From Henricia sp. BOLD:AAB3569 (taxonomy: Eukaryota > Echinodermata > Asteroidea > Spinulosida > Echinasteridae), in NCBI GenBank assembly GCA_037783545.1, contig JBBELK010001111.1, positions 1 to 64,000 of the forward strand: a DNA stretch of 64,000 nucleotides, given 5' to 3'. Each line of letters starts with the position of its first letter. Position 1 is the first letter of the stretch. Made by a program: the position numbers and the translations under genes. This document shows, piece after piece, positions 9,841 through 37,691 of this stretch. The notes under the pieces were generated by a model that worked only from the letters and a program-made list of their open reading frames with translations, did not search any database and was not told the origin of the DNA.

Positions 9841-9992
9841 TTTTAGGGATTATGACCAGGGACCGCCGGGGTGAATAAATGTCTGAGTTTGGAAAATGTG
9901 GATGCAGTGAAAAGCAACTTGTCTCCACCGGGATTTGAACCGCAGACCTTCTGATTAACGTGCAGACGCTCTACCAATTGAGCTATAAAGCC
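9841..9992 (-). mobile_element. tRNA-derived SINE (copy 1)
   Basis: On the minus strand, 9992-9921 forms a tRNA-like head: TAGCTCAATTGGTAGAGCG (A box) and GGTTCAAATCCC (B box), 72 bases long, with a weak anticodon stem. It is followed by a tRNA-unrelated tail beginning CAAGTTGCTTTTCACTGCAT. The same head-tail junction recurs at 53620-53796, so it is a SINE and not a tRNA gene. The T stem does not pair well and the base before the candidate GTT anticodon is C and not T. Confidence 0.75.
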
Positions 9993-16981: not shown

Positions 16982-18757
16982 CTACATTAATTTGAGCGAA
17001 GGCTGTAGTAATGTCGTCGCCATGGCCGCTTCTGGGAATATGGCGTGATAGTTGGATAGAGGAACGAAAGCAGCCGTAATCATTTTGCCTGCAAAAAAAA
17101 AAAAGAGGGAAAAAAAGGGATTTTGTTCTAATCTAACAATTCATATAAAATACCTCCCCAAAAAACCCAAAGTCCCGGCCGTTCCCCTATTTTTGTGTAC
17201 ATTTTACTTTGGTTACAGCGCTCTCGGTTACAGTGCTATTACAGATACAGCGCTCAACATTTCAAGTCCCTGGAACGATACATATGTGTAAAATGACTCC
17301 TGTTATAACGCTCCTAACCTGAGAGTTTTACAGAGCAGTCCGATCCTTCGTAAAGCATGTAAAGCATGTTACTTTTTAGCAGCAATTCGCTCTCTCGATC
17401 GCGATCGTCGCACTTATAAAACGATTCATCGAGCGCAGCCAGCATGCATTGCACGTGTCTGGACACAGACCTATATTGGGTTTACAGTCAACTCGGCCGT
17501 TTGCCAATTTAACTCTTTCTGATCTTGTAGCGCGATTTTGTGCCTATCTTCAAGCGAATACGTGCGTACGTACGTTCGTTGTTTTTACTACCGTGCATAC
17601 ATGTACCGTGCATTACGTGTAGATGTATTGTACGTACGTACATGTACTTACATGTATGTGTACATGTAGGCCTACGTGTACATGTACAGGTATATGCATC
17701 GCTTACTGCGCTATCATGGCTATCTGGATATAACGCTAACAAAAGTTCGGTCCCTCGAAGAGCGCTATAAAGAGAGTTTACTGTAGAAGCAAAAAGGCTG
17801 GTGTAATTACTGCACTGCTTCATGACACGGACAAATTAGTTTACAAAACATTGGTGTTTTTTTGTGATATGCTGGAAAATACATGAATTGATAGCGCGAA
17901 ATTTCAGAATGGTAATGAGAAAAATATGACAAATGATATGGTGTAAAAAACTCAACACCCATCATAGGAAAATGTGATCTGGACTAGGCTTGGGCGACTC
18001 CATCATTGTCGGAGTCGACTCCGATTCCAAAAAAGAATCGCGATTCCATTTTTCGCGTGAAAACATTAAATATACTGAGCGTGTTTAATAGGTACATGAG
18101 CGTGTTTATGTACATGTACCTCAGCGATACTACTTATTGTGGCGACAACGAACCAATTATTGGCACCGAGTGGCACTAAACGTCCACGAAATGATGTCGG
18201 CCTGTACCACACACACTTTCTTAATAATGTGTAAATGATCAGAGGCTAAATATTCGTACAAAAGTTGGAGTTTTGCCTTCGGAATTGCTAGGTAATTTCT
18301 GGAATCGGCAAGCTATCACTGGGAAGGGAATCTAAATGAAAGGGAATCTATTTCTACTGGGAATCGATTCCTCAAATCTGGAATCACGATTCCGATTCTT
18401 AAAGTGAAATCAATTCTACTCGATTCCGGCGTGGAATCGCCCAAGCCTAGTTTGGAAACCTACCCATAATCACGGTCACAAGCATCAAGTGTCTACAGAG
18501 CTCCAGTTGCGTTTTATGTGCTTAGTAGCCAAGAGCAAACAGATAGAAATCAACCTGTGGATTACAACATACCTGCAAACCACCTCCCATGCAGGCTGTT
18601 GACCGCTGCTATCGCAATCTGCGAATTGGGACATTTGACGTAGCAGTGGCCCTGCGGTGACGACCTGTCTACGTGGATGTGAAGAACTCCGCCGTGTTTG
18701 TTGCATTCTTCAATCACGTCGTCACGAATTTCAGTCTCCCAGTTAGCCGAGGTTTCA
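16982..18757 (-). CDS. RBM39: RBM39 C-terminal UHM exons
   Basis: Exon 18757-18573 encodes NWETEIRDDVIEECNKHGGV, then HIHVD and NSLHGRWFAG. Exon 17088-16982 encodes GKMITAAFVPLSNYHAIFPE and AAMATTLLQPSLKLM with a TAG stop at 16984-16982. The RWF and acidic helix features mark a U2AF-homology motif, which binds tryptophan-containing ULM peptides of SF3B1 and U2AF65. The last exon was found because its acceptor (TTTTTTTTGCAG) and the GKMITAA motif keep the frame. Confidence 0.9.
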
Positions 18758-21700
18758 CTGGAAAAACATTTGACAGTACATGATGTTTATCCCATTCAGT
18801 CATAGGAAAAAGAAGTCCCCTTCAACAAATGTACACACGTCATTGAAGGGGATAGGAATGGGACTTTTAACCGGAAAAAAAATTGAAAAACCGGTTTTGC
18901 TGAACGTTTAAACGAAACCCTTTGCTATGGAGCTGCGTATTTCGTGGCACGAATTTGGCGCGCGCGCATTGCTGACGAGCCTGTGCCAATCAATGGACAG
19001 TTTGATAACATGTGACCTGGCTTTGAGTGGCCACATGGGCTGCTTTCGAGCGCGGCACCAGGGATCCCTGGTGTTCCATGGTGCTCGCCCGAAAGCGCGT
19101 TGGTGCACCAGATGGTGGCACCAACTGCTCCGAGTCGTCGGAACAACTGGGAGACATGCGCAGTTGCGCGTACTTACGCATGACTCGCAAAAATGGCTGG
19201 CACGTCGTTGAATAATTCTGGAAATTTGGGTTGATATTTTGAATGTTCAAGCTTCCACATCGAAACCAAACATTGTAAATATTTTCAGATATGTGTGATT
19301 TATTTTGTGGAAAACCAAGATTTTATTAGCGGGGATGTAATTTCTAATGACCGTGGTGCACCAGGGATCCCGATAACGCTTTTGAGCGCAATCGTGTGTA
19401 CGCATGTGTGTGTGACGTAACGTTCCAAACGCCTGGGAGCACCAGGGACGAGCGCTCGAAAGCAGCCCTAATTGAACAAAATAATCAAACATCAGACTTG
19501 TCCAAGTGTGGACAAATCCTTCAGACAATGTCAAACAACATACAAACAATTGTCTGTCAGACAAAAATCTCATAGTGTAGACAGGCCATTAAGAACAAGT
19601 TGAAATACATTCTTGGCTGGTAACCCATTTTTGCAAAATACATTTTGTGATGAGCAAATTTCTGTGCTTAGCAGTGCCATGAAATTGGCCTCAGTAAAGC
19701 CAGAGAGACTAGACTGAATCTTGACTTACGATGTTGGGTCAAACATGTTGGAGAGCAGGAAACATGGTGGGTTAGGTGGTGGTGCTGCTGCTGGGGCTGC
19801 GGCTAGAGCTGGACCAGCCAAGCCTGTTGCTGTTGGTGCTACCTGATTGGCTAAGGCTACGGCTTGCTGTTGGGCTGCTGCAAGCTGTGCCTAGTGCAAA
19901 TCAAAACAGATGGTCATGGGTCTTTCCATAAGGCCTGATTCACACGGGAACATTTTCGTAATTACTCGATTGTGATATGATTATGATACCATTGTAATAT
20001 TTGCGACGACTGGGTTCACACGACATACTTGTAACCAAATCAAACAATTGTAACCATATTGTAATCGTATTGTAATCGTATTGTAATAAAGTGGGGTACT
20101 ACGCGCACGCAAGTCGATTACGAGGTCGTAATCGACTTGTGGCCTGGACAAACGTCCCTTGTCGAGCGCCGCGTGTCAAGTGCCTGATGCTCTAATGCTG
20201 TGTGGTGTGAGCGGCGCGTTAAAAACGACGCTTGCCACACACAACATCCGAGCATCATTTTCAAGCATGGGCTTATGGGATGGATTGTAATACGATGACG
20301 ACGAGATGGGGTCACATGTTTCTTGCCAATATAATGTAATCCAATTACAATTGAACGATGAGAATTCTCATCGTTGACCGATAATGATTCGACTAGAAAA
20401 AGGGAAACTCATTTTCCAAGTTCACCCGGACAGTTTTCAGGATGGCTAGGAACCCTGGATCGCAAATCCACAGATGCAGTAAATCATTTTTAAATTGGGA
20501 GACTTGTCCGAGTACATTCAAACCTCGATAACCTGTTTATAACAAGGAATATTTTAGGTCCTATGTTTTTGTTCATTATTTTTATACCTGATAATACAAG
20601 GTTTCTGTTGTGACAAGGTAAACTGCAAAGTCTCTTATTTAACGGGGTTCGACTGTAATTACCTGCAGAGACACCTGGGTGACGCTTGGTAGTACGCCAG
20701 GTGCTGCACCAGGGACATTGCTGAGGGGATGGAGTGCTTCCACTACGGCATTTGGCAGCTGGAAACCAGTACCTATCAAGAGAGAAAAACAAATGGAAAA
20801 GGTAATCTCTTACTGCACAGATTTTGCTTTAAAGGCAGTATACATGATTGGTATCTCGAAAATCAGAAATGTTCAGATTTACGCCCAACTTACACAATAT
20901 AAACATGATGACCGTAGAAAACTTCCCCTGAAATGGTTTTGTCTGAAGTGCTATAGTCTCATGAGACGAAAATTCAATTCAAACTTGCAACGGTCGAGTT
21001 GGTACATTGGTCAAGTTGACCTGGTACTGCAACGTTTTCATGTACACAACACATGCAGCGCGCGCAGAGAGTCGGGTCAAGTCGACCGTTACGATTTTCA
21101 ACACTTTTAACACTTAAAAATCGTAACAAATACTAGTTGGCAGGTATGTTGATGTGGTCAGTGATTCGGAACTTGTGAAGAATATGTATGAAGCATGGTA
21201 AAAGAAATATAACCTGCTTTATTAGCTCGTGTCGATATTGGAAGTTGACAAATAAGTTCCCGAGGAGAAAGCGAAGGGAACTACTTTGTCAAATTTCAAT
21301 ACCGAGGGGAGCTAATATCGATTATATACCTCATGCGTAGATTCCAGTCATCTGATTGGTTAAAAGTGGGGGCATTGAATCGGCTAGACCCGGCGCGTAT
21401 ATGCCCACCGGGCAATAGTCTTTGCCATGCCCCGGGCATAGTCATTTAGCGGGTTCCGGACGCGCGCATTACATGTGTTAGCATAGCTATAGCTGTGCAC
21501 CAACTATGCAGCTGTGCGCTTCACGTAAACATTCATCAGGACGGTAATGGCGGAATTTCGACGTCATTTTGTCGTCTGTCGTAGATGATGAAGTCCTTAA
21601 GAAAGTAAGAGAAGTGGCCTACAGTGAAAACTGTGTCCGGTGAAATGTGCTACTAAAGTGCCAGGTGATTATGCTACAATGTTTGCTGTAAATATACAAC

Positions 21701-24700
21701 TTTTCCGCCGTAGACCAGCTTCCGAAATCGAAACGCGAAGGACCACTGTCATGACTGTATGATGTTTCGTTACTTTTAACCAACCAGATGACAAAAATCT
21801 ACACATTCGGTATATAAAACAAATATTGACTGCTGTTTATTCGGGTCATGGTTAAGATTATAGGCCCTCGGTGATCTCGAAGCCATGACTATGCCCCTCG
21901 GCTTCCGCCTCGGGGCATAGTCATGGCTTCGAGATCCCCTTGGGCCTATAATCTTAACCATGCCCCTCATTGCAGTCAATATTTGTATACTATCAACCCG
22001 ACAGAAACCATGTTATATTTGTTTTACCATACCTCTCACATAATCTTCAGCAATTCAGAGACGCTGAGCGCAGAAAAACGATGAGAAAGAATTTGCTTGT
22101 GCAGCCATATTTACATTCAACTTTCGTGCGTATTTTACCCGTGCGTACTGTTGCGTATTCTGCATGCTGTACGCACTACACCCGGTTTCCTTGCGAAGTA
22201 AACTATTCTTACGTCACAAACTATTCTTACGTCACAAAGCGAGTACGTAGTAAACTGCTTACCTGGGTAGCTGGAGGATAGTTAACTACGCTCGCTGGTA
22301 AAAATAACCACTGGCACGTGATGGTGAATGGGCCAATGAGAATGGGACTTTTGTTTATTAATATGTTTGAGGTATGGTAAACCGTACGTGAACATTTTCA
22401 TACCTTCAGCCAGTTTGGCCATGAGCTGCAGCCTTCCTGTCGTCGTCAGTTCAATACCAGTCCTCTCCAGCTCATCATTGTCCAGCATGGACGTGGCCTG
22501 GGCATTGTCCGACCTCTCCGTCACGTGGTTGACTTTCATTGGACGACCGGCCAGCTCAAAACCGTTCAGCTGGTCTAGCGCCCTCTTGGCATCGTCAGCA
22601 TCGTGGAACTACGAGAATAAATGTATCATAAGATAGCCTAGCCCAGCATTTCGTATGAGGCTTCAAAATGGCCACTCACCAAACGAAGCACAAGCCTAGC
22701 CTCTAGCCCCGTTTCATAAAGCTTTATAGTATGTGGACTTCTAAACTGCACCTCCATTTTAAAAGTGAATTTGGGGCACCAGCCTAAAGCAGCGTTCACA
22801 TTTTATGCTGCACTTAGCGCAATGCATGAGCTCCGAGTCACCCATCTTTTTCCAAAATAGATGCGTCCACTCCGGTTACTCGGTTCTTTAATATCTCATT
22901 GGCTGCGCGTTGGATAGGTCAGCACACTGTTTTTGACCCAGCTCAAAACGTTTTGCGCGTCACGATAAGCTGCACACAAGCAGAAAATCAGTTGCTGTAA
23001 AAATCAATGGCACAGGCAAGTGCAAAACCATTTTTCCGCTAGGGTGAATGCCGCTCAAGCGTAAAGGTTACATTCACAAAGCTAATGTCACCTGATACCT
23101 TTAGCGATCACATAACATTTTGTCCAGCTTTGTTTTGTCCTATGCTTTGTGTACATATTCAAACTCAAAAACATTTTTCTCAGGGAGAGAGATGTTTGTA
23201 AATAGACGACTCCATGAAGTGTCAAACATCAAACTTACTGTAATGAATCCATAGCCTTTGGAACGTTTCAATTCACTGTCCGTCATCAGCTGTATAGAGT
23301 CAATCTGCAAATAGTAAATAATGGTCAAAGATACAAGAGCTCAAATTACCTAAACACACATTCATCTGCAATTGAGTCTTTCCACGGTAAAGGGGGCATT
23401 TTGGCAACACTGACCATATTTTTCAGAAAATACCTTTGTCTCGTCTCAAAATTTAAAAAATGAGTTTCAGTTGTTCTGAAGAGATAACTTGGGCCCAAAA
23501 AGGGTTACAAATAGTGTGACAACATGCCTTATTAAAAACCATGTGTACAAATTTCCAATATACGCTCGTAATTGGGACGGCCTGAAATGTGGCAAAATGC
23601 CCTCTTTATCGTGGAAAGACCCATTTGCACATTTTTGAACCTTTTCTTCCTTAACCTTATATGCAGCATGATATGTGGCAGAGGGTATCATTGATCCATT
23701 GTTCCCCTATTGTGTCTCAAACATCCAAGGAATTTCCAAGTTTTTAGGGGGAGGGGGTTGGGGGGGTTGGGGGGGTGGAGGGTGGAGTTGGGGGAGGGGG
23801 GGGGGGAGGGGTTGGTTGGTACGTTAACAAAAGGGAAGAGTGTGTTGAGGTATAGGGGCGTTAGGGGAGAGCAGGAGGTCCTTAATTGCCATTTGTATCT
23901 GTAGGCGGTGTATCCTCAGACATGGCAGACATCAAAACATGAGGGGTGTGGCTATTGCTGGGCACATGTATTATGCTGTGCATCAATTTGGATTAGGAAT
24001 CTAGGCAACATCGATCGTTGAAGACGGGCCAGCGAAAGCGGCCAGTAAAAATCAGTTCGTTGCCCGCTGCATGCCACATCAATCGCGCGTCCCATGCATG
24101 CAGCCTACATGGCCAAGCACACAATTTACGCAATGCATGTATGCACGGCCGCTGCCAGTTTGCGATGCAGGCAAAGATGGCGCTTGCTTAGGGATTAGAC
24201 TTGTACAAGTCTGCTTCGGCACTCATTGCAGTCGAGGTCTGCACGCTGCACGGCACCGCATTAAGCATCTGCAGTACACCAGCGCTGTATGCCATGGCAC
24301 TTGTTTGGCGACAACTTGCACAAGTTTGCTTAGCGAAATTACTGAATCAATTGAGGGTGCTCTTTTTATGCTCGATAAAAAAATACAGGGATGTGATTGG
24401 ATGTTTGAAAAAACCCCGAAATTTAACTTTTAATGAAGGTTCTGAATTAGTAGCAATTTGTTTTCTCAGAGTTTTTTACCTGACCAAAAGGCTCAAAGAT
24501 CCCCCTGAGCATCTCCTCTGTGATGTTATAATGCAGTGAGCCAACGTACAACCTCATGGGGCCTGCCCCACCCTTCTGTAACGTCTGGTTGCTCTGGGCG
24601 AGGCGATTCTTCTCTGCCTGGGATGGTTGGACGATGATGGGAACACCCATCAGTTTTTGATTGTTTAAACCAAGGGCCTGAAACAGCAATGACAAGAAAC

Positions 24701-27700
24701 AAGAGGTTTTAGACCATTAGATTCAGTTATTGCTGGCTTAATCCCAGTTGTGTGGTAAAGTCAAACCTGTGTGGAAGGCCGCGCGCATTTCCGGAAGAAA
24801 ACAAATCGGAAGGGGCGTGGCTTCCTTGGGGGAGGGGGCAGGGCATGGGAGAGACGTAGAGACCACGAAGACTTCAACTTTTGGAAATGTGTCACTAAAA
24901 GTGGGAAATTTGACATTTGTGTTTCAATGAAGGGCACCGACGGCAGTTGAATAAAAAGTGCACGGCAATTTATTGTCGTGAAATAGTCATGATTTTGAGG
25001 GCATAGCGGCAATTAGACTGGTCCCCTGTCCTCATATTTACTCCCCCTTCGTCGTATATGAGGACAGGTACACGCCGCCATGTTTGGCATAAATATCCAG
25101 GAATACCTGGAGGTTTATGCAAATTAACGGGGCTGTGTCACAGTTTGCGCAAGCCATTGTCTAAGCGGCAATGGCACAGGGCACCAACTGCAATTGCCGT
25201 CGGTTATTTCAAGGCCTGTGTACAGTATACAAACATCCTACTACAGTACATTACTCAACAAAATTGAAGGTTCTACCTTAATATGACTGTGTAAAAACCG
25301 ACTTGGGACCTAACAACTGTATAACTGTATGTGTGCAAATGGACTAACGCATGTCAAAATACAACATTTTGTTACTGACCAGGGGAACCGTTTCATCCGA
25401 CATGAACTCCACGTAGCCAATGCCTTTGGAGCGTCTGGAGTTGCGATCCGAGATGATTTTCACGTCGCGCACCTGTCAAAATAAAAGTAATGTAGAATCA
25501 AGGACACTCAATTACATTGGAAACTGTCAAAAATAGCATTATCTCCATGCGTGATTAAAGATGACTGTTCGATTTTAGGGCGATTTGAGCATCAACAGTT
25601 TTTTCTAAAAGTTAAATTGTTATTTTTCTAGAATAGACAAAGTTATCAGCTTTCATTTGGTACCAAGAACGTAAAAATCCGTCAAGGATTAATGCCACCC
25701 AATTAAAAACAAGAAATAGTAAAAGACAGGCCCTGTCTTTGATTTGACAGGGTTATGACATAAATGTATGTGTGTACGAGCGTGTAGTACACTATACGAA
25801 CCAGCAGACAAAAGAGGTCCGCATAAACCAGGTAGCACCGTAACTGTGTGGACTTGCACAAGTTCGCAGACGTCTTAGCATTTGAAAAAGGATAAGGGGA
25901 GGGGGAGGGGGATTCAAAAAAAGGTATAAGGTGTGCAGGGCTTGCCCTTAACTTTTTCTGAGAGTAGCCCACTGGGCTAGTAAATTGTGTTTTTTACTAG
26001 CCCGCAGAAATTTTTACTAGCCCATGAAATGTTTGAAAAAAAACAAAAAAACAAAGCATTAAAATATTGACTAGCACTGTCTACTGAAAAAGTTGATTTT
26101 TGTTCATCCCCCCATGGCTACAAATCACTGTCGCTGGTAGTGGAGTCGGGGTGTTCTTCCTCCTCTTCTTCAGTCCTTCATTTTTAAAAAAGTCAGGAGA
26201 GCCCTAAATTGCTCTTCTGAGATAATCGAGGAGAGCTAATAGCTCTGCTAATAAAAAAAACAGTTCCTTAAAATCTTTGAAAACACACTGTATACATGGA
26301 CTTTTGGGGAAAAATCAAATGTTTAGCCTGTTTGGGCCGAGTCAGTCTGGGGCCGAGTTTGTACACAAGGCAATGGGGGCCGAGTTGGTCTGGGGCCGAG
26401 TTTGTACACAAGGCAATTGGGGCCGAGTTGGTCTGGGGCCGAGTTTGTACACAAGGCAATTGGGGCCGAGTCAGTCTGGGTACGAGTTTGTACACAAGGC
26501 AATTGGGGCCGAGTCAGTCTGGGGCCGAGTTTGTACACAAGGCAATGGGGGCCAAGTTGGTCTGGGGCCGAGTTTGGGGCCGAGCCAGTCTGGGGCCGCA
26601 GTCGGATACCAGATGCATGTATGTCTATGCACGTATATTGCACACAAGCTGTGTTGGACACAATGCTAGCAGACCCAAGCTAGCTGTGGCCGTGTGTTGC
26701 ACGTGGAAAAATGCAATGCGCAATCGTCGTTTGCATGCCGCAAAAGGTAAAGCTTTGAAGAGTTCGTTTTATTTTCAATAATCACATCTGGAAAACAAGG
26801 AACGTGCACATGTTTTAAGTAGCCCGCCGGGCAAGTTGAAAAGTGGATTTTACTTGCCCGCAGCAGTTTTTACTAGACAATGTACGCCGGGCTAGCGTTA
26901 AGGTCGAGCCCTGGGTGTGTAACGATGCCCTTAAATGAATTGTAAAGTTAGGGCGAAATCCTGCGTTTCGTTTTTGAGAGGAAAAAAGTATTTTCAGCCA
27001 AATTTCCTACAGTGCACGAGTACAAAAAGAAGTCCGCATAGTGTATGTGGTAACGGTCTGTGTGCGCGTACGTGTGTACATTGTACACATACTATGTACA
27101 TATGAGCGTACGCACAAATGTACATGTGAAACCCGTTTCAAGAAAAAGGCTTGTATCTCCAATTCCCGACGTCGGAAATTTAAGTCTTGTTTTTTTTTTT
27201 CGTTACAGAGACACGTAAGCTTTCTAAATTCGTTCGCTTGTGTAAATTAATTTTTTAATCCTTTTACCCAAACACGGACAGTGCAACTTTAAGAACGCGT
27301 ATGATAAAAATCAAACTGTGTATAAGCCAGCTAAGTGCCTCATCTACATTCCTAAAAAACAATGAAAACTGCGTCCAAGCTTGCAGGTCCTGTATACAAG
27401 GCTTTAATGCCAAAAGTAAGAAGATTGAAATCAGTTTGTAACAGCTATAAGACGTTACCTTTCCTACAGAAGAGAAGAACTCTTCCAGGTCCTTGGCTCG
27501 GACTCGTTGAGACAACTGCATGACAAACACTGTACGAGCATCTCGTGTTTCTGGCGGTGGCTCAATATCCTTCTTCCTGCTACAGGATAAAAAAATACCA
27601 CACGGTAAAAACAAGGCTATGAAGATTCTTTGTAACTAGACCAACAAAATGCAGGGTTTCATACAATCTTTTGGCCCAAAATTACTACGGGAATAAAGGT

Positions 27701-30700
27701 GTGGGTGGCTTGACTTTATGGGTAGAGAGTTTGGGCGGTCTGTTCTTGACACAGGTATTAAAGTGCAATCTTGGACAAAATAGCTTGGGACACCCCGGCT
27801 AAACCCCGTGCAACCCGAGCTCAATGTTGGGTAGCTGGGGTGCGCGCCACCGTAATCTGCAGCAGTCAGCGTCAACATTAAACGGAAAAGCAGGGGTACA
27901 CACTTCAACTGTCCCAACTATTTTGTCCAGGATTGTAGTTCACCGTGGATAGGTGGCGTGTGATCCTGTCCCGAGTAGTGTTCTTAATTCGTGTTCCCAT
28001 CGTTCGGGCGCAAGAACATTGTTCGCGCATCAAGAACAGACCGCCTGAACTCACCCAAACTGTATGTTTAAGACAAGGCTAGGGGACCTGAATGTTGGCA
28101 ATGGCCCAAGCCATTATCAGCATCCAGGTCCCAAGCCGCTAAAAAATGGATACACCTCGCAGTAAAACTTCTTGAAATTCTCCAAAAGTAAACTTTATCT
28201 TTCCCCATTTTGTGCATTATTTAAAGCCCCAATACATCATTTGCAGTTTATACCCAAAATGTTACTTCACGAGTTGACAAGAAAAACAAATTAAAGCATT
28301 GATAGTAATGGTAACAAACATGATTTTCTTTCCGTGTTAAGTGGTATCTTTGTGGGAGAAATTGCCAACAAAAATGCAGACAACTTTTTTACCATTCATT
28401 TATACACAAAAACCATGCATAGTATTACTGCATCTATGTGGCTGACATTTCTACAAGGCAGTTTATCAACATTATTATTTAATTATGTAATGCTGTTTTT
28501 CAATCATGTAATCTGTCTTTAAAGTGCTGGGGTGTCGGGATGATTTTGCTTTTTTAGACGTCTCACGAAGGAGGGTAACTTTACGGCTGTGCATGCGTGT
28601 ACGTAATATACATGCGCTGAAACTGGCTAGTTAACAGGGAACCATTTAAAACATACCGTACCAGATCACTTGTGTGATGTGACCTTCGCCAATACAAATG
28701 CGTGAACTGTCTAAGGTACCTATTGTTTAGAAATTAAATTTAGCTTGCACATTTATTCCACAAGCTCAAAATAGATATTTAGAGGTACTTACCCAGGACT
28801 TGAACTTCTCTTGCCGTAACGATCGCGACTGCGCGAACGACTCCGTCTCCAATGGAAGGGATCTCTGTTGGGACTACCACGTTCTTTGCTTCGACTTCGC
28901 CGGCCTCGACGAGGGGGGCTAGGGGGGTTCCTAGAAGAATTTATGAATAGTGTTATTTTTTTCGAAATATGAATGTGGGCTTATTTTCATAAAGTGTTTT
29001 GAATACACATCAGTGTGGTAGTACGATAATGATGGCACTGTCCAATCCATTGACTTGAACATGAAAATCTACAGGTTTTACAGTTTTATACAATTTACGA
29101 CAGGGCATACCAACCAAGTTGGTCTCACAGGGGTCTAAATTAACACTGGTCCTGTGGTCAGAGACCAGTGAAAAATCAGAAGGACCAATAGATCTCTCAA
29201 GACGCTGGTCCGATGGACCAGTGAAAACATTTCATGACTCATGGAAACATTCTCTGATGCATAATCCACAGAAAACATTTATTACTCAATACTCAACACA
29301 AATCTGCCACGTTTTATAAGTTTGTAGTGACCGACAGCTCCGCTCTCCAGCAAAATCCCATTCATTTGTACACGATCAAAATTAGCGCTCCAGTGCGATG
29401 TACTAGAATTCTGCCTCATCATGCACTGCACACAGGGGATTGTGGGAGAACCGTAAAAACACATATCTTTCATTCTTCTAACCTTCCATATCGTCCTATT
29501 CCTCGTCCTCTGTCCCTGCCCCGATCCCGATTTCTGAAGCTGTCAAACCGTGGCCGTTCCCTACTCCGGCTGCGCCGTCTCCTCGCATCAGGGCTGCGAC
29601 TGCGACGCTTGCTGCTGCTGCTGCTGGACTTCTTAACACTGCTACGCCTTTCCTTGGAGGGACTAGCGCTACGGCTACGACTTCTGTGTCTGGATGGAGC
29701 ATTAGGGGTTAAGCGTTAGGAAGCCATTTATGATCACGAATGTACTAAACGAAATCTCACAACACATGGGCACCTACATGTGTCCAACACTGGTTCACAA
29801 TGAGCATGTTTCCCCCCAGGTTTTTGTCATTGTCTGGGGTTTTAGCCGTCGCAGTGAAAATGTTATCAGAGCAATTGGCAGAAAAAAACTTGTTTAGCAC
29901 TTTACAAAATAAATGAGTGCTGATAGAAATCTACATGTAGCTAAAAATTCACAATTATTAAAAATTTCAACCCTCAATTTATCTCCATCATGTCCCGAGA
30001 ATCTAAACAATTAACTTTCTTGGGGAAGGGGTGGGAGGTGAGGGGAGAGCATTTTGTACCTTTTGCAGTATCTGCAGTTTCTGCACAAGTCGAAAGGGAC
30101 AATCCGTTTCTTTGTACACTTTAACACTTGTAATAGTCAGCAGCACATATTTTAACAGGTACTTAACAGTGCATGATGATAGTTTGTCTAAAAATCCAAT
30201 CAGATTGCTTCAGTAAAACGAAAAATGGTCTAGATCTTAAATTTTGGACACTACTTTTTAAAACATGACCCTATATGAAACATCCTAATGGCAATAGAGC
30301 ACTAAAGTGAAAACGTCACCCTTTGTGTGTTGCCATGGTTTTTTGGGTCTACACTAAAACCAGTGAACTGTTTCCGTACGCTTTAGCAATGGACGTTTCA
30401 GATTACCAGCGAATGTTTAGACCCAATTACCATGGCAACTGACGTCACACTTTAGTAGTCTATGCATAGTTCCGAGATTGCCCAGTTAACCCCGCCCCTT
30501 AGATATTGTTGCTATGTGCTCACAAGCCATCGCAAAAAAATGGCGACACAAACGTACAAAGCAACGGGACTCGGCATGGAAAGCACAGATTCATTGGAGA
30601 AAACTCAAAGGTATTTATGTTTTAGGGTCGACAGTTACCGTAGCACACACTGAGCGAAGGGCTAGTAATGCAGGGATGACACATTCATAAAAATGCGCTT

Positions 30701-33700
30701 TCCTACCTTTGAACAGCGAATCGCCCGACATTGAAACCAAAATTCACCCGGTCACTGGCGCATACAACATACAAACTGTATGGGCAGAAAATCGCGTGAT
30801 CGTTGTGATGATTGCATCACTTTGATCTATGTGGGCGCCGTCTGCTAGCTCTGTTGTGATTGGTCGGCGGGTTCGGTTGATTGACAGGTCGGAACTATGC
30901 ATTAGGTCACCACATTCTTATTCTCACACTAGTCACACTTTCACGTCTGCTTACTCCGCGGCAAGCATAACCACACCCATTTTAAACACATAAAACTGCT
31001 TCAGATATGAGTTTTCATGTTGGTCTTAAAACCCCTGACGAGGTTTCAGACCGCCGCAGCAGAGGGTTGCGGGCCAGTCAGAGCATGTCCAGTACCCTTT
31101 ATGAAGACGTCCAACACTGGTTCTGATGTAAGTGGATACTGCTGATCACACGCCATTGGGCTAAGTCACTTTTAATCTGCGACAACAAACATGTAGCCCA
31201 GGTCAGATGTGTTGTGTTGGTAGAAATTACACAATGAAATTTTACAAGTACGCAAAGATAGCCTTGCTAAGCCATAGCTGCTGTGGAAATCTCTGGATCA
31301 ATTTTTTTTTTTTTGTTTTTTTTTTACTGTACACGGAACGACACAAATTTTGTAGCAAGATACAAAACGATTGTAGACACCAATAAGCACTTACCTTTTT
31401 GCAATTTATTTAAATCCAAAATGGCAGTTCACATCAATGAACTGCCACGTTAAAGATAGTATACATGATTGGTAAACTGTTACAAATAGTTTTATCCCCC
31501 TGTGTGATTGAAGATATGCATGATTAAAACCAACCTGAGCAAAAACCAGCTCCTTACTTTGTCTAACTTTTGAGAAAAAGGGTTTACAGTCATTTCGTCC
31601 TAAAACCACTTCGCCCTGAACCACGGCCTGTGCACAAAGTGGATTTTGGGCGACGTGCCATTTGGGCGATGTAGTGTTTGGACGAAGTAATTTTGGGCGA
31701 AATGACACTCGGGCGAAGTGGTTTGGGGCGAAATGGCACTTGGGCGAATTGAATTTTCGTCTCATGAGACGAAAACTAATTGTTTTACTCATTTCTCAAA
31801 GACTATAGCACTTCAGACAGAACCATTTCAGGGGAAGTTTTCTACGGTCATGTTTATATTGTGTAAGTAAGGCAAAAATCTGTGAACATTTCTGATTTTC
31901 GAGATTACCAATGATGTATACTGCCTTTAAATTTTGAGCCATGCAACTTGAAACAATTCAATCTGTTACAGCATTGGTATCCTTATGTGCAATTCATGAA
32001 TACATGTACTCCTACATTACCCCACAAGCACCATACAGTCACAGCTTAGCAAGGCATCAACACAGACAACATTACGTGGCTACTCACCGTTTGGAGGACA
32101 ATTCCTTCTTCTCTGTTTCGCCATTTTTGCCGGACGCCTCTCCCTAAGATCATTCCAAAATACAACAGCATTATGGGATGCAACCAGCCGACAGCAGAAT
32201 TGGTTGAGTTGGGTCGTTTTAGGAATTGGGGGGAAGCAAGAGTGGACACAAATGGAGGAGGGAAAAGAAAGAATTACAAAAAATGAATCAAAATAGTACG
32301 AGCACAAATGTCATTAGCCACATATTTCATTTTCCGGTTTTTGGGCAGACATTTTGTGAATCCGGAAAGACTCAACTTATCCAGACGTTTCTTATCCAAT
32401 TTTGTTTTTTTGTTTCACCATGCAACATGTACTACATGTAGTGAATGGACCAATACGTAATTGCTAACAGGTCTAGCCATTAGCAACTTACCGTTCAATA
32501 AAGCCATGCCATTCATCACTTGAATGTTATCAATCTAAAACAGTAAAATGAAAACTTTGAGGACATGGGACAAGGGCCGTTTGTTTGTAATGCTGGTTTT
32601 GGGGAAAATATTTTGTTTTTGTATGACAAACTTATTCAAAATTACATGCACTTTGAGCACTTGCTTTGTCCAGAACCATGTTATTTTCAACTGAACGAAA
32701 ATTCAGAAAAATTGTGTTAACCCTTTGATCGTCATTTTTTCTAATGCATGGAGTTATGGAACAAATTTGTAGTTTGATGGTTGAGAAATTAAAGCCCCGT
32801 TACATCATTTGCAGTGACCCAAGAGTTGACAAGAAAAGTCCGTCTAAAATGTTGACAGCAATGGTAACAAACACCACATGATTTTTCCTGTGCAAAATGG
32901 TACCTTTGTGGGACAAATTGCCAACTGAAGGTGCTTTTTTTTTTAAAACAAAAATCATTTGCAAGCTTTTTTTGCTATTCATTCAACACAAAAACCATGC
33001 ATGGATTTTATGGTTTTCTGCAACTTGTATCACTGCATCTACGATGAGGTTGAAATTTCTACAAGGCAATTTATTAACATTCTTTAGCTTTAATATGCAG
33101 ACTCCCGAATTTTCCGCTTTGTTTTTGCTCGATTTCGTTTTTTAAATTACAAATTCTGTTTTTGCAGGTGTAAATTTTTGCCAAATTCTGTGAAAACAAC
33201 GGTGGTATAAAACTACAAAAAAACACATGTCTGCTATGTTCAACTTATTCTGGTTTATTAAAAACCAAGAATTTAATAACACATTACCAACACTGCCATT
33301 CTAGTTTTCGAAAACACCATTGCTGTGCCTCTGATCAAACGATTGTGTTTATGTGACACAAACTTCATCACTGGTATCCGGTCCTACGACGAGTTGCAAC
33401 ACTGGAGACTGGCAACGGAGTATCGTCCAACTCCATGTACGTCATGCACCTAGCGCCCAAGCCTGCAGCACGAGCGCTATTATTGCGTGTGCATAGGCAG
33501 TGCAGTAGTAAAGCACAGGAGGTTGAGGCTACGCTGCAGGAACACTTCTTTTGGTAATTTGAACAGCTGTTTTTTGCAAATCAGATTGATTATTGTTCTG
33601 GGAAGGGTTCCCAATGACTGAATTTGAAATGATTTTGGAAGAAAATTTTAATTATTTTCTTTACTTCCGTTTTATTTCCCCGATTCCGTGTTTTAAACCA

Positions 33701-37346: not shown

Positions 37347-37691
37347 GTTGAACGGCTCGTCTTAATCCTGTAAAAATTTGCAATTATTCAAAGCTTGCAT
37401 TTATACTCGGTAAGAGTTGAGAAGTTGATCAGAAATCTTTTTCTTTAAAATGACTCATCAAGCATTTACGGTATTTATACCAAAATTTAAGATTTTTTGA
37501 GGAAACAAGCAATTTTCAGCCTGTCTCATCCATGGGATTTTTCATATCAGGGATGTGATTAGATGTTTGAAAAAAAACCTGAAATTGCAAGTGCGCAGCG
37601 TGAAGCCATTATGGCGTGGGATTCACAGGGGTCATGTTTTTTGGCAAAAAAAAACTGATTTCAGGAAAAAACCTGAAAAATCACATCCCTG

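Follow-up and report, generated by a model that had tools for sequence, protein, structure and literature searches.

The closest described system is the poison exon of human RBM39, which is named 2b and for which a minigene spans exons 1 to 4 (PMC10477243; this and the following papers are cited from the parts of their text that were available). The acceptor of this exon is selected by human RBM39 itself via its RRM2, whose binding motif is N(G/U)NUUUG; the one essential copy of the motif immediately precedes the AG, and the donor is hidden by a stem-loop (PMC10477243). A poison exon in human RBM39 was also suggested in PMC6547761, with 98.6% identity between human and Xenopus. Nine genes have been tabulated as targets of AS-NMD in each of human, mouse, fly, and worm, RBM39/Rbm39/Caper/rbm-39 being one of them, and no alignment is obtained between the fly poison exons and those of mouse or human (PMC8652244). 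In the fly, Caper protein was found on its own transcript, PTC-exon reads being higher in the pull-down than in the input, and poison-exon feedback was one of three models proposed (PMC10332324). In the available text of PMC13247117, RBM39 appeared only in the reference list.

The starfish locus described here contains a 43-nt segment that is comparable to human exon 2b (PMC10477243) in lying in an RBM39 gene, as a would-be early cassette that would bring a premature stop, and perhaps also in a stem-loop that might hide the donor. The two would also occupy the same place if the exon numbering corresponds, the human position being taken from the exon name (PMC10477243). Unlike human exon 2b, the starfish segment lacks N(G/U)NUUUG at the acceptor and in the exon, and its stop is reached two exons on by frameshift. 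It is 43 nt long, whereas a length of approximately 70–75 nt is suggested for the human exon by the 98.6% identity in the available text of PMC6547761, and the partner arm of the starfish hairpin lies in the intron, outside the exon. Two invertebrate RBM39 orthologs, caper of Drosophila and rbm-39 of C. elegans, are listed as AS-NMD targets (PMC8652244, PMC10332324). In the available text of those papers, support for the fly exons comes from transcript annotation and from reads in the pull-down, and the worm case from a table row, whereas the starfish segment is a candidate read from genomic sequence.

On weighing the evidence below, we place the probability that the 43-nt segment is a used RBM39 poison exon at roughly 0.45, i.e., at about even odds against a decoy. 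The original prediction took a confirmed exon to extend such control far outside vertebrates; as a first case of this, it is out of date, as AS-NMD of fly Caper and worm rbm-39 has been published (PMC8652244, PMC10332324). Because an invertebrate RBM39 poison exon is expected from these fly and worm targets, the prior for the segment was raised and its novelty was lowered. No echinoderm RBM39 poison exon was noticed in the open-licence literature searched, which is no proof of absence. If the exon is real, an echinoderm would join the animals in which unproductive splicing keeps RBM39 in check, and this would help to date the control within deuterostomes.

The RBM39 gene and the frame outcome of the 43-nt segment

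The window, i.e., the whole 64-kb stretch of DNA that was analyzed, carries a gene on its minus strand at 37367–16982, and the 13 coding exons of this gene were spliced to a 572-aa protein. The protein matched the profile TIGR01622 (CC1-like splicing factor) with an E-value of 3.7e-151 and 504.5 bits against a cut-off of 231.65. In a PDB search, its best eight matches were RBM39 chains, with one poly(A)-binding chain further down. By these profile and PDB matches the gene is assigned as an RBM39 ortholog, which agrees with the identity first proposed. As expected, the protein search confirmed no relative in the prokaryote contig collection (46 pattern matches) or in the viral contigs (3), and exact exon-pattern searches for relatives in the prokaryote and virus collections found none. 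Table 1 summarizes the features of the locus.

Table 1. Positions of the RBM39 exons and of the candidate splicing elements in the window
Feature	Position	Strand	Remarks
E2, exon with start codon	37275..37367	minus	Ends in phase 0
Candidate 3' splice site region ttttcattttactgttttag	32535..32554	minus	Score 5.66, exceeding 5 of the 12 modelled acceptors
Candidate poison exon of 43 nt (would-be exon 2b)	32492..32534	minus	Frame open throughout; frameshifts next exon
Donor GTAAGT and hairpin from its first base	32457..32491	minus	14 bp, with the G at +5 bulged out; loop of six bases
E3, next RBM39 exon, 56 nt	32088..32143	minus	Acceptor score 1.86, the gene's lowest on the scale used
E4, RS region exon	29483..29689	minus	Holds premature TAG 29677-29675 upon inclusion of the 43-nt segment
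E5–E14, remaining RBM39 coding exons with RRMs	span 16982..28930	minus	Splicing, TIGR01622, PDB RBM39 chains

The segment falls between E2, which carries the start codon, and the coding exon E3, in an intron of 5131 nt in the window. This had been called the first intron, which holds in so far as it is the first coding intron, but a further intron possibly precedes it in the gene, since an acceptor was read just 5' of the ATG and a GTAAGT resembling a donor after 38100. It is termed intron 2 hereafter.

Reading of the sequence bore out the segment with its two splice sites: the acceptor is CATTTTACTGTTTTAG, followed by the first exon bases ATTG, and the near-consensus donor is GTAAGTTG, preceded by the last exon bases AACG. 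As had been claimed, the flanking exons E2 and E3 join in phase 0, and skipping of the segment gave the full protein. The predicted frameshift and stop were also reproduced, as inclusion gave a 61-aa product that ends at a TAG in the fifth codon of E4. The number of junctions after the stop had been overstated as more than ten; 10 coding-exon junctions were counted downstream of the stop exon. When both haplotypes were spliced in silico, inclusion placed the premature stop upstream of exon junctions in each.

A repeat-like stretch adjoining the segment ends at 32789 and leaves the segment outside it, in a comparison within the window. A 91-base query over the exon found only two places in the genome (740.7 Mb, 2104 contigs), and these are allelic. 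Both results were counted in favor of a used exon. A retrocopy, i.e., a spliced exon copy elsewhere in the genome, would have been a direct sign of use, but none was found beyond the two allelic places by this search, which skips very common words.

Splice-site strength and haplotype identity against chance

The splice sites were scored with generic weight matrices, and the scores were compared with those of the 12 modelled acceptors and 12 modelled donors of the gene. The acceptor of the segment was average on this scale (Table 1), and the donor scored 10.34, exceeding 11 of the 12 modelled donors, with one higher, which was counted in favor of a used exon. A decoy pair was defined as an acceptor and a donor 25–250 nt apart, both at least as strong as the sites of the segment.

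These decoys bear on the explanation that competes best with a used poison exon, namely, that the segment is a pseudoexon, in which an average acceptor and a good donor happen to be paired by chance within 5.1 kb of intron, and is never or hardly spliced. We would grant this the same chance as a used poison exon, somewhat less than even. Among 300 simulated introns of the same length, 20% held at least one equally strong pair, with a mean of 0.33 pairs per intron. Equally strong pairs were present in two of the 11 other introns of the gene, i.e., those after E3 and E10, and the opposite strand of the window contained seven such pairs at five distinct donors. The next intron holds pairs that are even stronger, at 31534–31395 (also 31499–31395) on the minus strand, with a donor score of 12.0. 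However, the 43-nt segment is the only pair reaching both scores in intron 2 of either haplotype, and the orthologs of the gene are AS-NMD targets; both points speak against a pseudoexon.

When the two site scores were summed, a pair as good as that of the segment was held by 86% of the simulated introns. Two pairs within intron 2, 36245–36172 and 34386–34277, had slightly higher summed scores (16.2 and 16.3 vs. 16.0). Splice-site strength was consequently rejected as a test of use, as it did not separate the segment from the decoys.

A second copy of the locus, in contig C209, was taken as the other haplotype from nine collinear blocks over approximately 20 kb. The block containing the segment was 90.9% identical, and the identity was 93–96% in four longer blocks. 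C209 showed no change in the exon, in its two splice sites, or in the premature stop, and inclusion gave an identical 61-aa product; the anatomy of the segment, its outcome for the frame, and its presence in both haplotypes are thus directly established. Intron 2 is 4050 nt long in C209, which is 1081 nt shorter than in the window, and the shared stop despite this difference was counted in favor of a used exon. A block of approximately 1.45 kb at about 34290–32840 of this intron is mostly unmatched in C209 (approximately 0.7 kb there) and ends approximately 300 nt 5' of the segment.

The haplotypes differed by substitutions at 2.4% on average outside the modelled exons, and in intron 2 they amounted to 4.5% (163 of 3626 aligned positions). 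The haplotypes were identical in 46% of the 43-nt windows outside modelled exons, which also favors a pseudoexon. The identical run around the segment extends over 120 nt (32595–32476), and runs of at least this length take up 36% of the aligned noncoding positions, where the aligned region extends up to about 44.7 kb and still includes any exons of neighboring genes. This run is the shortest of 32 runs of at least 120 nt, among 451 runs lying wholly outside modelled RBM39 exons. Haplotype identity was accordingly rejected as a sign of constraint, since runs this long or longer are commonplace in the aligned noncoding sequence. Because equally good site pairs and haplotype identity both match chance, the original prediction is accurate as an observation yet does not constitute evidence of use.

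Cis-elements and the proposed regulation

The RRM2 site N(G/U)NUUUG was absent from the exon and from 100 nt on either side of it, and no human-type site precedes the acceptor AG, which was counted against a used exon. Intron 2 contains 21 copies of the motif (4.1 per kb), so that its absence from these 243 nt is not itself unusual. In a used starfish exon, the lack of the RRM2 site known from human would point to turnover of the cis-elements under a conserved outcome, as proposed for fly vs. mammals in the available text of PMC8652244.

One RRM2-type site in intron 2 abuts the acceptor of another candidate, 34920–34888 on the minus strand, as ATCTTTG/AG. This candidate is 33 nt long, in frame, and without a stop, and has a GTAAGT donor. 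It bears on an unlikely explanation, namely, that the true RBM39 poison exon lies elsewhere in the gene and the 43-nt segment is a bystander: the RBM39-dependent human acceptor has CUCUUUG beside its AG (PMC10477243), and the place and sequence of the exon may move, as fly poison exons fail to align with those of mouse or human (PMC8652244), but the 33-nt candidate has a polypyrimidine tract that is weak by eye and, because it adds no stop, is not a poison exon by itself.

In the case of the donor, the 40 nt from 32491 folded at −12.6 kcal/mol, and the sole haplotype difference inside the hairpin falls in its loop. The frequencies of folds as stable are uncorrected for the choice of this hairpin, which was picked by eye: 4 of 144 GTRAG sites on both strands, with the segment's own donor counted; 8 of 2000 shuffles with GTAAGT fixed; 254 of 7795 GT-starting 40-mers (3.3%), or 130 (1.7%) when five or more of the positions +1 to +6 had to be paired; and none of the 12 modelled donors of the gene, the nearest being −10.2. 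The fold of the 71-nt context of the donor was not unusual (z −0.65). Donor accessibility was rejected as a test, as 58 of the 144 GTRAG sites, own donor included, were as inaccessible or more. Judged from its sequence, the donor hairpin appears reminiscent of the human inhibitory stem-loop and is regarded as a lead rather than a result.

Should the 43-nt segment be a used poison exon, it would be a cassette exon, and productive RBM39 mRNA would be spliced past it. Its inclusion would shift the frame and bring a stop after 61 codons in E4, and the resulting NMD would leave less RBM39. From the biology of RBM39 orthologs, on which the assumed use and NMD also draw, RBM39 itself would be expected to promote inclusion. 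Baseline inclusion may be held down by the hairpin that covers the strong donor, and E3, with its weak acceptor, may leave room for the segment to be included. A more far-reaching version, which we consider improbable, is that sea star RBM39 controls itself via a poison exon that arose independently of the human one but in the same intron, with the donor gated by the hairpin until the stem is opened or stabilized, either by U1 or by RBM39 acting through RRM1, its stem-loop-binding domain. Structure rather than an RRM2 site would then be the main switch, convergent with the human inhibitory stem-loop.

Other observations in the window and the assembly

Contig C955 carries COX1 and ND1 three times each between approximately 5.6 and 41.4 kb, at a spacing of 16,221 bases, the pattern that tandem assembly of a mitochondrial genome would be expected to give. 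COX1 in this contig has 11 TGA codons inside, and ND1 is on the strand opposite COX1, an arrangement that we take to be the sea star mitochondrial gene order. Another copy is present in contig C2104. In the window itself, positions 9920–9992 of the minus strand gave an Rfam tRNA match of 43.8 bits that was uncalled by ARAGORN and is possibly a tRNA-derived repeat.
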